Notes under the pieces: model-generated
Told to the model about the DNA's origin: nothing
The model's input: only the letters and a program-made list of their open reading frames with translations
The model's database searches: none
Assembly (NCBI GenBank): GCA_026129405.1
Contig: JAHCID010000001.1
Location: forward strand, 899,237 to 963,236
DNA length: 64,000 nt
From: a bacterium
GTDB lineage: Bacteria; Desulfobacterota; Binatia; DP-6
Direction: 5' to 3'
Made by a program: the position numbers and the translations under genes
In this document: one piece after another, positions 51,949-59,266 of the stretch
Layout: every line of letters begins with the position of its first letter
How positions within the stretch are numbered: the stretch's first letter is position 1

Positions 51949-54171
51949 ATGCGCCCGCTCCGCCCGCTCGTCGCCCTGCTCGTCATGGTGCTGCTCCTCG
52001 GGGCGCGCTCTGCGGCTGCGCAGTGTGGCGCGACCTCGCTCTGCGCCGCGGGCGCCGGTCCCTGCGTGGTGAACGCCAACGTGACGTTCACCGCGCCGGT
52101 GACGACCTGCGATCTCGGCGGTCGCGCGCTCACCATCGCGTCCGGCCGTCAGCTCCAGGTGAGCGGCGGCGGCGCCCTCGAGATCGTCAACGCGGCGAGC
52201 ATCACGCTGGAGCAGAACGCGCGCATCCTGAACAACGGCGGCTGGCCGAGCAGCGTGACGCTGCGTGCGCTCGGCAGCATCACCCTCGCCGCCAGCAGTC
52301 GCATCGACGTCGCCTCGGGGTCCGGGGGCGGCATCATCGAGCTCGCGACGCTCGCAGGCGACGTGCTCGCCGTGGGACGTCTGGTCGCGAACAACGGGGG
52401 CGTGAGCACCGCCGACGGCGGCCAGGTGTCCATCGTCGCGGGCGGCGACGTCGATCTCGGGACGAGCGGGATCCCGAACGTGATCAACGCGTCCGCCGGC
52501 TCCGGCGACTCGGCCTACGGCGGCAGCGTCGACATCACGGCGAACGGGAGCATCACGCTGCGCAGCCCGATCGACGTGCGCGGGCAGGAAGGCGGCAGCC
52601 TCCTGCTCGACGCCGGCCTCGACGTGAAGACCACCGCCGCCGGCGACATCGACGCGACCGCGATGTCCTTCGGCGGGGCCGGCGGCATCGTCGAGGTGGC
52701 GGCCTTGCGCGACGTGGTTCTCGACGGCGACGTCGTCAGCGCGACCAACGGGACGCTCGAGTACAGCGGCTTCGGTGGCGATCTCAGCATCGTCGCCGGC
52801 GGGGCGGTCACCGTGGTCGGCAAGGTCGATCTCTCCGGCGGGACGGTGGGCGACGGCGGGGGGCTCTCCATCGAGGGCGGAACCGCCGTGACGTTGAACG
52901 GGGCCATCACCACGCGCGGGATGAGCTCGGAGGCCTCCGGCGGCGCGATCGACGTGGCCTCGGCGGGCTCTCTCACCTTCGCCGGCTCGGCCGACGCCCG
53001 CGGCGGCTACTTCGCGGGCGACGTCGACCTCCGCGGCGACGGTGCGGTCACGCTGGCCGCGACGAGCTCCATCCGCGCGGACGCGGCGTCCACCGGCATC
53101 GGCGGTCTGGTCGCCGTCACGGGCTGCACGCTGACCATGCAGGCCGGCGCGACCATCCTCGCCACCGGCGACCCGACCCTGCCGTTCCCGTCCGGCAGCA
53201 TCCGGCTGCGTGCGAGCGCGGCGATGCTCATGGCCGGGAAGCTGACGGCGTCGGCCATGAACCGGATCGAGTACCGGGACGTGTTCCCCACCGTCACCGG
53301 GGCGTCGTCGCCGCAACGGATCATCATCCAGAATCCGGACCTGCCGTGCTGCGTCGGCTGCCCGGTCCCGACGACGACCACGACGCTGCCGACCACGACC
53401 ACGACGACGCTCGCGTCCACCACCACGACGACCACGTCCAGCACGACCACCAGCACCACGCTGCCCGCCAGCACCACGACGACCGTCGCCCCGTCGACGA
53501 CGACCACGACCACGCTGCCGCCGCCGACCACCACGACGCTCACCCCGAGCCCGACGACGTCCACCACGGCGAGCACGAGCAGCACCACGACGTCGACGAC
53601 GAGTACGACGAGCACCACGGCGAGCACGAGCAGCACCACGACGCCGACGACGAGCCCGACGACGACCACCACGACGAGCACGAGCAGCACCACGACGCCG
53701 ACGACGAGCCCGACGAGCACGTCGACGACCGTGAGCAGCACCACCACGACGCTCGCGCCGCCGGCGACGACCACCACGACGACCGCGCCCGTCCCGACCA
53801 CGACCACCACCGCACCGCCGGTGTCGTGTCTCGACGCGCCGCTCGTCGGTTTCGACGCGGTCGGGTGCCGCCTGGACCTCGTGTCGGCGACCTTCGTCGA
53901 GACTCCGCCCCAGGAGCTGGGCGGGACGCGCGCAGTGCACAGACTCGAACGACGCGTGTCGCGCGCGCGCCGCTTCCTCGACCGGGCGCGTCAGGGTCGC
54001 AAGGTGTCGCCGAGCCTCAAGCGCGCCGTGCGCGAGCTGCGCATGCTCGCCCGTGATCTCTCGAAGGCGGAGCGGAAGGGCAGGATCACCGCCGCGGTCG
54101 CGGCGCCGCTGGTCGTGCTCGTGACCGGCGCCGAGACCGAGATCGGCTCGCTCCGCGCGACGCTGCGCTGA
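51949..54171 (+). CDS. Secreted beta-solenoid protein with Thr-rich linker and C-terminal helical domain
   Basis: 740 residues. Signal peptide ALLVMVLLLGARSAAA, then Cys-containing QCGATSLCAAGAGPC, then a long Gly/Ala/Ser-rich repeat region (about 45-460) of filamentous-haemagglutinin-like beta-helix turns (SITLAASSRIDVASGSGGG, GSITLRSPIDVRGQEGG). A Thr-rich low-complexity linker fills about 474-624. The last 116 residues form a basic helical domain (AVHRLERRVSRARRFLDRAR, VSPSLKRAVRELRMLARDL) that starts with a Cys pair. The gene is the first of three in one direction and a paralogue of the next one, with the same length. Surface display is likely. Confidence 0.85.
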   Translation: MRPLRPLVALLVMVLLLGARSAAAQCGATSLCAAGAGPCVVNANVTFTAPVTTCDLGGRALTIASGRQLQVSGGGALEIVNAASITLEQNARILNNGGWPSSVTLRALGSITLAASSRIDVASGSGGGIIELATLAGDVLAVGRLVANNGGVSTADGGQVSIVAGGDVDLGTSGIPNVINASAGSGDSAYGGSVDITANGSITLRSPIDVRGQEGGSLLLDAGLDVKTTAAGDIDATAMSFGGAGGIVEVAALRDVVLDGDVVSATNGTLEYSGFGGDLSIVAGGAVTVVGKVDLSGGTVGDGGGLSIEGGTAVTLNGAITTRGMSSEASGGAIDVASAGSLTFAGSADARGGYFAGDVDLRGDGAVTLAATSSIRADAASTGIGGLVAVTGCTLTMQAGATILATGDPTLPFPSGSIRLRASAAMLMAGKLTASAMNRIEYRDVFPTVTGASSPQRIIIQNPDLPCCVGCPVPTTTTTLPTTTTTTLASTTTTTTSSTTTSTTLPASTTTTVAPSTTTTTTLPPPTTTTLTPSPTTSTTASTSSTTTSTTSTTSTTASTSSTTTPTTSPTTTTTTSTSSTTTPTTSPTSTSTTVSSTTTTLAPPATTTTTTAPVPTTTTTAPPVSCLDAPLVGFDAVGCRLDLVSATFVETPPQELGGTRAVHRLERRVSRARRFLDRARQGRKVSPSLKRAVRELRMLARDLSKAERKGRITAAVAAPLVVLVTGAETEIGSLRATLR
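53371..53820 (+). repeat. Low-complexity ACN tract coding for the Thr-rich linker
   Basis: About 450 bases made almost entirely of ACC, ACG, AGC and related codons. The opposite strand is open as a Val-rich frame (53007-53810), which is only a shadow. Inside it, two copies of a 42-base unit (53621-53662 and 53675-53716) lie 54 bases apart, encoding repeated STSSTTTPTTSPT-like residues. Slippage or recombination could change the tract length between strains. Confidence 0.85.
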
Positions 54172-54422
54172 TCCCGCGTCGCCCGGCTGCGTTCCTGCTC
54201 GCCATGGCGACCGCCTGCGGCGACGTCGCGCTTCGCCGGACGACGCGATCCCACCCGCCCTCTGGCAACGGACTTCCGAGTCGGGAGGACCAGCCTGCGA
54301 CGTCGCCCGATGGTCGTAGCCGTCGTGCCCCATCGTCCCGGCCGCGGCGCAGACCTGCGCGATGGCGCAACGGCGCAGCGCACCGCCTCGTGCGGACGCC
54401 CGTGCGCGGTACGCTTTCGGGC

Positions 54423-56642
54423 ATGCGGGTTGCTCGGGATGCGCGCGTGCGGATCGGCGCTCTGCGGGCCCTCGTGCTTTCGATCGTGGTCGTGTGCGTG
54501 GCGTTCGCGGATCCGGCTCGCGCGCAGTGCGGCGGGCAGCAGCTGTGCGCGGCGAATGCCAACCCGTGCGTGGTCTCGGGCTCCTGCGCGCTGACCAGCG
54601 GCGCCAGGTTCGATCTCGGGGGACGCGACCTGACGTTCTCCGCAGGCGCTCGCGTGACCATCCCCGGCACGACCCCGGTGGGCATCGCCATCACCAACGT
54701 GCACGACGTCGTCTTCCAGAACGACGCGCGCATCACCGCGGCGGAGTTCGACGACAGCAGCCCGGGCTTCGCCTACCGGCGCGGCCAGGAGATCGACGTC
54801 ACGGCGAGCGGGCGCATCGACATGCATCCCGCGGCGCGCATCGAGGCGCCCGGAAGCCACGAGGGCGGGGACATCGAGCTGCGCGCCGGGACCTACATCG
54901 CGCTCGGCATCATCAACGTGCGGGCCTCGAACGGCCTCGGCTTCGGCGGGCAGGTCTCGGCGCTCGCCGAGACCGGATCGCTCACCGTCGCCGGCGGCAT
55001 CGACGCCCGCGGCGGCAACCAGGTGAACGACTCGGGGGAGGGCAGCGGCGGCGGCGTGGCGTTCCTCGCCGCGGGCGGGGTCACCGTGGCGGCGGCCGTC
55101 CAGGCGACGGGCGGCGACTGCAGCTTCTGCTCGGTCAGCCTGATCGGCGAGTCGGGCAACGTCGCGCTCGCTGCGCCGGGCGGCAGACTGGAGGTCAACG
55201 CCACGGGCACCTACGGCGCCGGCGGCGAGATCGAGCTCCGCTCGGGCGGCAGCACCACGCTCGCAGGCCCCATCTTCGGCGCCGGCCGGGGCTCGGCGAG
55301 CCAGGAGGAAGGCGGCTCGGGGGCACTCGTCACGATCGATGCCGGCGGCGACGTCACGATCACCGCGCCGGTCGATCTGGTCGCGCATCAATCCTCGAAC
55401 ATCCCCGACGGCACCGGTGGGGAGCTGGCGATCGCCGCGAGCGGGCAGGTCCGCATCGGCGCTGCCGTCTCGCTCCAGGGGCCGGGCCCGTTCAGTCAGG
55501 GCGGTCGGCTCGGGGTCGACGCGGGGAGCCTTCTCGAGGTGTCGGCTGTGGTCGACGCCAGCAGCACCGCCTACGGCGGGACGATCGATCTCGACGCCAC
55601 GGGCACGATCGACGTCATGCCGGCCGGCAAGCTGCGCGTGGCCGGCGGGACGACTTCGGCCGGCGGCGCCGGCGCGCTCGACCTCCAGGCGTGCATCGTG
55701 CGCATGCGGGGCACGAGCGTAGCCGTGCGCAGCGAAGCGACGAACGGCGGCTTCGCCACCGACCCGGAGCAGCCGTTCGGCAACAACGTGCTGCGCGTCG
55801 GACAGAGCTGCGAGATCGGCGGCCGGCTTCTCGCCCCCACCGGCGAGAACCGCGTGCTGCGGCGCGACGGCGTTCCCGGCTGTCAGGTCAACGGGGCCAC
55901 CTTCGAGATCAACCCGCCCCTCACCTACGTGGACGACGACCTCCCCGAGCTGCCCTGCTGCGGCGCCGCCTGCCAGGCGACGACCACCACGCTGCCGCCG
56001 GGCACCACCACGACGACCACCGCGCCGCCCCCGACGACGACCTCCACCACCGCGCCGCCGATCACGACGACCACCACCACGCTGTCGCAGACCACGACGA
56101 CGTCGACCACCGTGCCGCAAGGCTCGACGACGACGACGACCGCACCCCCGGGCGGCACGACGACGACCACGACCGAGCCGCCGGCCGCGACCACGACCAC
56201 CACCACGTTGGGTGGCGAGCCCACGACCACGACGACGCCGGCGACGACGACCACCACCACCGCGCCGCCCGCGAGCACCACGACGACGCTGCCGCCCGAC
56301 CCGTGCGACGCCCCGGTCACGAACCAGGAGGCGGCGCGCTGCGGGCTCGTCGCGCTCGACGAGGTGCTGGCGACGCACCCGGCGGACGAGCTGGGCGGCG
56401 TCCGGCTGGTGACCAGGCTCGGGAAGCTCCTCGACCGCGCCGACAGCGCGCTCGGCCAGGCGACGACGGCGAAGAAGCCGAAGCCGAAGCTGCGGCGGGC
56501 GCGGAGCCAGCTGCGGGCGTTCGAGCGCGCGGTGCGCAAGGCGGCGCGCAAGGGGAAGGTGCGGGCCGACCTCGCCGAAGTCCTGCAGGCGCTGACGTTG
56601 CGGGTGGGCGGGGCGCTCGACGGGCTGCGCTCCAGCAGCTGA
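54423..56642 (+). CDS. Paralogous secreted beta-solenoid protein with Thr-rich linker
   Basis: 739 residues, one fewer than the neighbour. Signal peptide ending at ARA-QCGG near residue 34. The [15 protein letters not shown] start, the [12 protein letters not shown] segment, the Gly-rich solenoid, the [12 protein letters not shown] junction, the Thr-rich linker (about 519-625) and the final basic helical domain ([39 protein letters not shown]) match the first protein part by part, though the sequence identity is low. A tandem duplication is the simplest origin. No LPXTG or autotransporter barrel is seen, so how it is held on the cell is unknown. Confidence 0.85.
55979..56298 (+). repeat. Second low-complexity Thr-coding tract
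   Basis: About 320 bases of ACN codons with scattered Pro, Gly and Ala codons encode the Thr-rich linker of the second paralogue. The opposite strand is a shadow Val-rich frame. Unlike the first tract it lacks a long internal repeat. Confidence 0.8.
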
Positions 56643-56784
56643 GAGCTCGCTGCAACGCACGGTCAGCGGCTCCCGGTCGGGCGATCATGCACGATCGGGG
56701 CGAGATGGCGTACGTCCAAGGTCGCGGAATCACAGATGGCCGAACGGGCCCATGCGGCATGCCCGTTGCTCTCCTCCGGCCCCG

Positions 56785-58050
56785 ATGAAGCAGCGCGTCC
56801 TCGCCTCCGCCGTGACGCTGGCCCTCGCCGGGCTCGCATCCGCCGTCCACGCCGCGCCCGACGACACCACGCTGTACCTGCGGCGTGGGGCGACGTCCTC
56901 GATCCTCCAGCTGCTGCCGACCGCGCCCACGCGGTCGAACGCGTACGAGATCGCGACCTCGGTGTCGGACCGCAACAACCTCGTGCTCGGGCCGTTCCTC
57001 GGTCTCCCCGCGGCCGGTCCGCTCAAGGTGAACGTCGGGCAGGCGCAGGTGACCGTCTTCCTCGGCAGCGGGACGCAGGGCATCTCCGGCTGCGCGGACG
57101 TGACCGTGACCCTGCTGCGCAAGACGGCCAGCGGGGAGCGTGTCGTGCTGGGCTCGGGCGCGCTGACCAACGCCTCGCTGCCGCCGAAGAACAGCAGCCC
57201 GTCGCCGCGTCTGGAGATTCCGATCGCGATCCAGGGAACGCCGGCAAGCCGCACGCTGGCCGTGGGCGACCAGCTCGGGTTCGAGGTGACGGTCCTGAAC
57301 CGCTGCGGCGGCGCCAAGCAGGTCTCGCTGCGCTACGACGCCACGAGCCATCCGAGCCGGATCGTGTTCCTCGACAACTGTCCGAGCGTCGCCAACCCGG
57401 ATCAGACCGACAGCGACGACGACGGCGCGGGCGACGCCTGCGACAATTGCCCCGGCGTCGCCAACGGCGGCCAGCACGACGGCGACGGCGACGGCGTCGG
57501 CGACGCCTGCGACAACTGCACCTCGGCGCCGAATCCGGACCAGGCGGACAGCGATCACGACGGGCTCGGCGACGCCTGCGACTTCTGCCCCGCCGACCCC
57601 GGCGAGGGCGCGGACCCGAGCGGCTGCCCCTGCTCGCGGCTCGACTGCAACGACGGCAACGCCTGCACGACCGACGCCTGCATCCCCGCGATCGGCTGCA
57701 CCTACACCGACGCGATCTCGATCGACGGCGTCCTGTGCAAGCTCGACGCGCTACGGGCGACGGTCGTCGGTGCGCCGGCGGTCGACCTGTCGCTGCGCCT
57801 GAAGAAGCGCCGCTCGCCGCTCATGAAGGCGCTCAAGAAGTGCGACAAGTTCGCGGCGCTCACGCGCAACGAGCTGCGCCGCGGAGGCCGGAAGCTCCCG
57901 AAGCGCATCGGGCAGCTCCAGGCCGCGCTCCAGCGCTTCATCCTCGAGGTCGACCGCGCCCACCAGCGCAGCGAGGTCTCGTCGGGATTCCGCATGACGC
58001 TGCTCGCCGCCAGCGGCGAGGTCGTCGTCGCCTCGCGCCAGATCCGCTAG
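56785..58050 (+). CDS. Secreted thrombospondin type 3 repeat protein with shared C-terminal domain
   Basis: 421 residues. Signal peptide ([14 protein letters not shown]), then a beta domain (about 25-195), then calcium-binding thrombospondin type 3 repeats (about 205-270: [56 protein letters not shown]). A Cys-rich piece ([23 protein letters not shown]) follows, then a basic helical C-terminal domain of about 105 residues that resembles those of the two Thr-rich neighbours. The frame is open to 56752, but the ATG at 56785 begins the signal. No ribosome site is obvious. Confidence 0.85.
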
Positions 58051-58131: not shown

Positions 58132-59034
58132 TCAGCGCACGATGACGTCGGCGTCGTAGCGCACGCCGTTGCGGGACTTCGACTTCACCGACGTCTTGGT
58201 GATGTCGAGCGTGCTGCCGTTGCCGCCGCTCGCGAACAGGTGCACCGAGCCGTCGCCGCTGCTGCGGATCTGGCTGCCGCGGATCGAGGCGTAGCCCGGA
58301 CCCGCCTTGCCGGCGCTGCGGCTGGTGCGCGTGCTGCGGTGCGAGCCCATGAGGACGTCGCGGCCGTTGAGCGTCGAGTCCGTCACCTGGAGGTCGCCGC
58401 CCGCGGTGACGCGCAGCGAGCCGCTGCCGGCGACCAGGCGCGAGCCCTTGCCGATGCGCACGTTGCCGCCGGTGAGGTCGCCGGTGGTGACCTCGACCAT
58501 GCCCCCGGCGCCCAGCTGGCAGCCGTCGCCGACCGTCACGTCGCCCTCCTGCGAGGCGATCGACACCATCGCGAACGAGCCGCTCTTGCTGCGCAGGTTG
58601 CAGCGGCCGCCGACCGTCACGTCCTGCATGCCGACCACCTGGAGGATGCTGTCCGTCGTGAAGCGAACCCCGTCGCCGATGCGTACGGACCCGCCGCTCG
58701 ACACGAGGAAGATGACGCCGCCGGAGCCCGAGGCGGAGAGGTCGCCGTTGACGATGATGTTGCCGGACGCCTTGACGATCAGCGCCCGCTTCTTGGAAAC
58801 GAACTTTCCAGGGAACACGACACTCACCGGGCCGAGCGGGGGCTTGTAGTTGGCCTCGGCCCTGTCGGTCGAGAACTGGCCGTCGTTGGCCAGCGCCTTG
58901 CCGATCCGAACGTCGCCTTCCGAGAAGACACCGTTGTTGTCGAGATCGGCGAAGGGCTCCTCCGCCGCATGTGCCGCACTGATGCCGAGCCCCAGAGCCA
59001 ATCCGATCGTGAGCGTCTTCCACGTCCTGCGCAT
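58132..59034 (-). CDS. Secreted protein with EF-hand-like motif and beta-solenoid repeats
   Basis: 300 residues from the ATG at 59034, preceded by ggaggagaa. Signal peptide LTIGLALGLGISAAHA, then FADLDNNGVFSEGDVRIGKA, a DxDxNG calcium-binding loop of dockerin/EF-hand type, then a repetitive Gly/Ser-rich beta region (GGSVRIGDGVRFTTDS, GGRCNLRSKSGSFAMVSI) to the end. It lacks the Thr-rich linker and the C-terminal helical domain. The solenoid style matches the two paralogues on the other strand, so the four genes may form one surface-protein cluster. Confidence 0.75.
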   Translation of the reverse strand: MRRTWKTLTIGLALGLGISAAHAAEEPFADLDNNGVFSEGDVRIGKALANDGQFSTDRAEANYKPPLGPVSVVFPGKFVSKKRALIVKASGNIIVNGDLSASGSGGVIFLVSSGGSVRIGDGVRFTTDSILQVVGMQDVTVGGRCNLRSKSGSFAMVSIASQEGDVTVGDGCQLGAGGMVEVTTGDLTGGNVRIGKGSRLVAGSGSLRVTAGGDLQVTDSTLNGRDVLMGSHRSTRTSRSAGKAGPGYASIRGSQIRSSGDGSVHLFASGGNGSTLDITKTSVKSKSRNGVRYDADVIVR

Positions 59035-59266
59035 TCGAGTTCTCCTCCGTCGATGAAGTGTTGCGAGCGCCGGAGGGGCCCAGTCCAAGACGCGTGCCAT
59101 TGCGGAGGCTGCGGATTTCCCGCGTGCGACGCACGTTTGCGCGCCGGCGCACAGGCACCTGCCGTGAGCCCTGCGCGTGGCGGCGGACAAATCTGTCGGG
59201 CGCCATCATTCGGGCGACGCTTCCCTCCCCGCCCGGTGCCGCGACGCCCTGCGGGTTGCCGTGCGC

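Follow-up and report, generated by a model that had tools for sequence, protein, structure and literature searches.

What joins three adjacent genes for secreted proteins whose outer parts differ, and which nevertheless appear to end in the same way? In the window, the 64,000-nucleotide stretch of bacterial DNA that we analyzed, these genes lie on the forward strand at 51949-54171 (P1, 740 aa), 54423-56642 (P2, 739 aa) and 56785-58050 (P3, 421 aa), and each of the predicted reading frames has an ATG start, a stop codon and a coding-like GC3 of 0.94-0.95. All three begin with a hydrophobic, signal-peptide-like segment, a call based on hydrophobicity. The outer parts are indeed different: P1 and P2 are beta-solenoid-like proteins with Thr-rich linkers of 106-150 residues (aa 475-624, 53371-53820 in P1; aa 520-625, 55980-56297 in P2), while P3 contains thrombospondin type 3 (TSP3) repeats (aa 197-268, 57373-57588; PF02412, 24.6 bits, just below the cut-off of 25). 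These are followed by a single Cys-rich CxDGxxCTxDxC repeat (57640-57705), which is Dicty_CTDC-like at sub-threshold significance (PF00526, E 1.9e-4) and lies immediately ahead of the tail. The tails comprise the last 114-118 residues: aa 625-740 in P1 (53821-54168, with GFDAVGCRLD at the start), aa 626-739 in P2 (56298-56639) and aa 304-421 in P3 (57694-58047). A further secreted beta-solenoid-like ORF adjoins the cluster on the opposite strand (58132-59190, minus strand), and its translation has no such tail.

The tails are weakly alike when compared in pairs. The genome search links P1 to P2 at E 6.7e-12 and BLASTP links P1 to P3 at E 0.002, while P2 and P3 have no BLASTP similarity; homology is thus a result of profile comparison. 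The family profile was seeded with eleven tails from the source genome and extended to 70 sequences (alignment A3), and the own-genome profile E-values for P1, P2 and P3 are 2.2e-26, 3.9e-20 and 3.3e-19, respectively. Against a held-out profile of 48 members, all from other genomes, the three tails score 82.9, 57.8 and 48.1 bits. The best of 2,000 shuffles for each (6,000 in total), scored with a sister model that omits only the three window tails, reach 18.4, 10.8 and 13.0 bits, and the reversed window tails score 3-8 bits against the profile. It could still be argued that composition alone makes these Lys/Arg/Ala-rich helical ends look alike and that they are unrelated, given that identity to the first tail is as low as 16-38% across the 70-member alignment, that P2 and P3 fail to match by BLAST and that helical profiles draw weak chance matches. 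However, the held-out scores lie far above all 6,000 shuffles, which rules out a composition artefact at the sequence level, and the near-invariant cysteines at fixed positions, the terminal placement of 81 of the 86 six-frame hits and the predicted fold common to the P1 and P3 tails make this explanation extremely improbable. As the original prediction had it, then, the three window tails are homologous by sequence and constitute one shared domain. In the tail tree, they are not mutual closest relatives, which indicates that a recent triplication does not by itself explain the cluster; the deep branches of this tree are poorly supported.

AlphaFold2 models of the P1 tail (pLDDT 88.3, pTM 0.80) and the P3 tail (pLDDT 82.7, pTM 0.74) have four helices in the same order, such that the common helical bundle that had been envisaged is predicted for both of the tails that were folded. 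Both models retrieve the same structural neighbors. The Cys-containing opening described earlier is also present, but it is not a separate lead-in: it runs into helix 1 and is part of the domain. Almost all members (97-99%) have a cysteine ahead of helix 1 and another within it, spaced as C-x(12)-C-R-L-D in P1. A second pair, located in the loop between helices 1 and 2 and at the start of helix 4, is complete in 19 of the 70 tails, missing altogether in 51 and never represented by one cysteine only, while a third pair, linking the loop between helices 2 and 3 with the C-terminal end, is found in approximately seven members. This co-variation in pairs points to disulfides, as in an exported domain or an oxidising compartment, and the bundle is probably stapled by them. 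The basic character of the tails holds across the family: all 70 tails have a positive net charge, with an average of +11.3 per 100 aa, and the passengers are acidic (-4.4 per 100 aa). A transmembrane anchor is ruled out, as none of the 70 tails contains a hydrophobic stretch of transmembrane grade (19-aa hydropathy of at least 1.6).

Whether the domain is undescribed, as had been suggested, depends on the depth of the comparison. At curated cut-offs, the window tails are matched by no Pfam or NCBIfam model, and to this extent the suggestion stands, but profile-profile comparison, reciprocal matches and fold reveal a distant relative in FIMAH (PF22888). The P1 tail scores 13.5 bits against FIMAH (cut-off of 24.8), the P2 and P3 tails have no match to it, and a FIMAH search of the whole source genome gives no match at E ≤ 0.01. 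Among the 70 tails, FIMAH is nonetheless the only Pfam family matched repeatedly, by nine tails at E ≤ 1 (best 2.5e-4), with two for the next best families. One member from a sister lineage (L108), and no other, passes the FIMAH cut-off (26.5 versus 24.8 bits), and the tail profile matches a FIMAH protein (L104) at E 8.7e-6. Alignment of the two profiles by hhalign scores 28.5, with helices 2-4 aligned, compared with 11.7 and 13.6 for reversed profiles and at most 11.7 for 200 column shuffles; decoys made by circularly shifting the FIMAH profile were dropped because they preserve the register.

A solved structure is available for comparison, since the C-terminal four-helix bundle of the Neobacillus novalis GH92 enzyme (PDB 7nsn, residues 1321-1411) is FIMAH by sequence (E 5.4e-18). 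The P3 model matches 7nsn_A with a Z-score of 11.5 (rmsd 2.1 Å, 91 aa) and the P1 model with 12.4 (chain range spread), values around 12 that are not discriminating for a fold as common as the four-helix bundle. Comparable structural scores are obtained for 2rld, Avd (4dwl, 8ub7), 2gsc and the plant pectin methylesterase and invertase inhibitors, all without a sequence link, and we read these as instances of a common arrangement. Matches to Rx_N, RRXRR, EzrA and SOG2 in Pfam and NCBIfam were set aside as single, sub-threshold and inconsistent across members, while comparison of the family profile with PDB sequences mainly gave designed helical repeats and coiled coils, which were treated as composition hits. 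Judged from profiles and predicted structures, the tails are distant, lineage-specific relatives of FIMAH; as the window tails fall under its cut-off, they are relatives rather than filed members. Both domains are four-helix bundles of secreted multi-domain proteins, located at the C-terminal end or close to it. The tails differ in having an extra Cys-bearing N-terminal segment with the C-x(12)-CRLD signature, a strongly basic composition, paired cysteines and dozens of copies per genome. FIMAH sequences carry only a mild charge, from -9 to +7 per 100 aa, and hence do not share the basic face as a trait. Our literature search on FIMAH found no description of the domain, with two word matches that apparently concern type 1 fimbriae genes.

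The tail family is restricted to one lineage and rare in the rest of the class. All seven genomes from the taxonomic family of the source genome carry it, in 4 to at least 31 copies each, whereas only 11 of 141 other genomes of the class have one or two copies (including one hit to a FIMAH protein), and tails are found in none of the 246 other genomes sampled from the phylum. A genome-collection search with alignment A6 recovers two loci only, both in soil "Deltaproteobacteria" MAGs, and the named relatives of the tail are soil metagenome "Deltaproteobacteria". Within the tail tree, an adjacent pair of tail genes in the source genome (L001 in G000) matches one to one with a pair in another genome (L055 in G003), suggesting gene conservation between genera.

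In the 5.6-Mb source genome, the family-profile search identifies approximately 31 copies at E ≤ 1e-4, and one more probably exists, as an FG-GAP-like protein (L004, G000:C8) is truncated by the contig end at 243445 soon after its tail starts. The passengers in this genome include beta-solenoids (P1, P2 and both L001 genes), right-handed beta helices (L038, L053), subtilases of the S8 protease type (L006, L051), a GH10 xylanase (L045), a glucose/sorbosone dehydrogenase (L146) and a PQQ propeller (L149). One further protein, a multiheme cytochrome as judged by its several CxxCH heme motifs (Cytochrome_C554-like), also has a tail (L044:1584-3776, minus strand), which perhaps places electron transfer at the cell surface. 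Most members have either a Thr-rich linker or CDDGxxCTxDxC repeats between passenger and tail. In the six-frame hits counted above as terminal, no more than 20 aa separate the end of the hit from the stop codon. The exceptions include two paralogous exported proteins of the source genome (L050:1286-2239 and L052:2746-3729, both minus strand) with an internal domain, which is followed by a Thr-rich linker of the TTTTLPP type and a C-terminal beta-rich region, i.e., in swapped order. Two other proteins, one in the source genome (L005) and one in another genus (L073), contain little more than the domain itself behind a signal peptide and a Thr linker, suggesting that the domain acts by itself. 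These results support a common domain, C-terminal in most cases, that one lineage attaches to exported proteins which are otherwise unrelated.

What such a domain does can be approached from its placement and chemistry. The reading that we put forward, with confidence that is evenly divided, is that the tail is an autonomous extracytoplasmic bundle for non-covalent retention of exoproteins on the cell surface or substrate. Sec would export the tail-bearing protein, disulfides would form and staple the bundle, and the protein would then leave the periplasm, probably via the type II system. The conserved basic face of helices 2-3 would bind an anionic polymer that belongs either to the surface of the same cell or to the substrate around it, and about 30 different enzymes and adhesin-like proteins would be kept near the cell on Thr-rich or Cys-rich spacers. 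The export route, the ligand and retention itself are what we infer here. A binding or retention module accounts most economically for the long linkers, the basic charge, the varied cargo and the existence of stand-alone and internal copies, and it gains support from the opposite charges of tails and passengers and from the occurrence of one family on unrelated passengers. A type II secretin is found in every genome tested, which makes export of a folded, disulfide-bonded protein plausible. By analogy, deletion of the bundle from the N. novalis GH92 mannosidase lowered yeast cell wall binding by approximately 50% with activity at 81%, although the Tm of the enzyme also fell and the authors caution about hydrolysis during the binding assay (PMC10167667), and this support comes from a distant relative rather than from the lineage itself. 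In this light, the "anchoring" option of the original prediction is plausible. Of a bolder version, in which one taxonomic family of uncultured soil bacteria has made a FIMAH-like bundle its general non-covalent surface-display tag, borne by about 30 exoproteins per genome and bound by one dedicated surface polymer or receptor, we are doubtful.

The strong terminal bias counts against retention, as it would also suit a sorting or secretion signal, that is, a folded C-terminal bundle recognized by an outer- or inner-membrane machine that moves or anchors the cargo. This is the main rival, and its appeal lies in more than position: the near-invariant cysteines, the presence of the tail on dozens of unrelated cargo proteins per genome within one taxonomic family, a distribution that resembles that of MYXO-CTERM (PMC11980579), and a TSP3 region in P3 that resembles that of a MYXO-CTERM protein would all fit. 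Like MYXO-CTERM/myxosortase (TIGR03901), the tail is a C-terminal element that is confined to a lineage, has an invariant cysteine and is borne by dozens of different surface proteins in which Cys-rich or TSP3 regions occur. Yet it is a folded domain of about 115 aa without a transmembrane helix or short Arg-rich cytoplasmic tail, its cysteines pair in a manner that indicates disulfides rather than a lipidation site, and MYXO-CTERM anchoring is a different chemistry. PEP-CTERM/exosortase and LPXTG/sortase likewise provide a C-terminal tag common to many exported proteins of one genome, but the tails have neither motif nor membrane segment. LPXTG is absent from all 70 tails, as the original prediction had it for the three window proteins, and exosortase EpsH (PF09721) is missing from all seven family genomes, even though the same model detects it in two other genomes of the class (G010, G013). 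The T9SS C-terminal sorting domain is a beta-sandwich, unlike the all-helical tail; a search for SprA_N gave no match, in the control genomes as well. The NCBIfam sorting-signal models have no match in P1, P2 or P3 other than a TSP3-only match to MtsC. Because internal copies (L050, L052) and cargo-free copies (L005, L073) exist, we consider a sorting signal less likely than retention, and unlikely overall.

The bundle might instead be a structural cap or an assembly domain that stabilizes its passenger or mediates homotypic association of exoproteins without an external ligand. Here the same deletion in the GH92 enzyme is suggestive, since it lowered the Tm by 7 degrees (PMC10167667), and the alternative disulfide staples suggest selection for stability. 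In many members, however, long flexible Thr-rich linkers part the tail from the passenger and make direct stabilization unlikely, and the stand-alone copies have no passenger to protect. A cellulosome-like arrangement would offer a precedent, as dockerins are repeated C-terminal modules on many exoenzymes beyond a flexible linker, but the Pfam scans list no dockerin among the families matched, and the source genome has no Pfam cohesin as a partner (cohesins are found in G002 and G013). Overall, we find a cap or assembly role quite improbable.

The retention reading bears on how anchor-less exported proteins of uncultured Gram-negatives stay with the cell. Through the FIMAH link and its solved structure, work on the function of the tail would inform both domains, and the tail could serve as a marker by which to annotate surface proteins in this lineage. 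If the display-tag version were true, it would represent a membrane-anchor-free counterpart of MYXO-CTERM and would show what FIMAH domains do. In the genome of one relative, a single tail-bearing ORF (L016, G002:C136:1465-2952, minus strand) also has a Pfam cohesin match.
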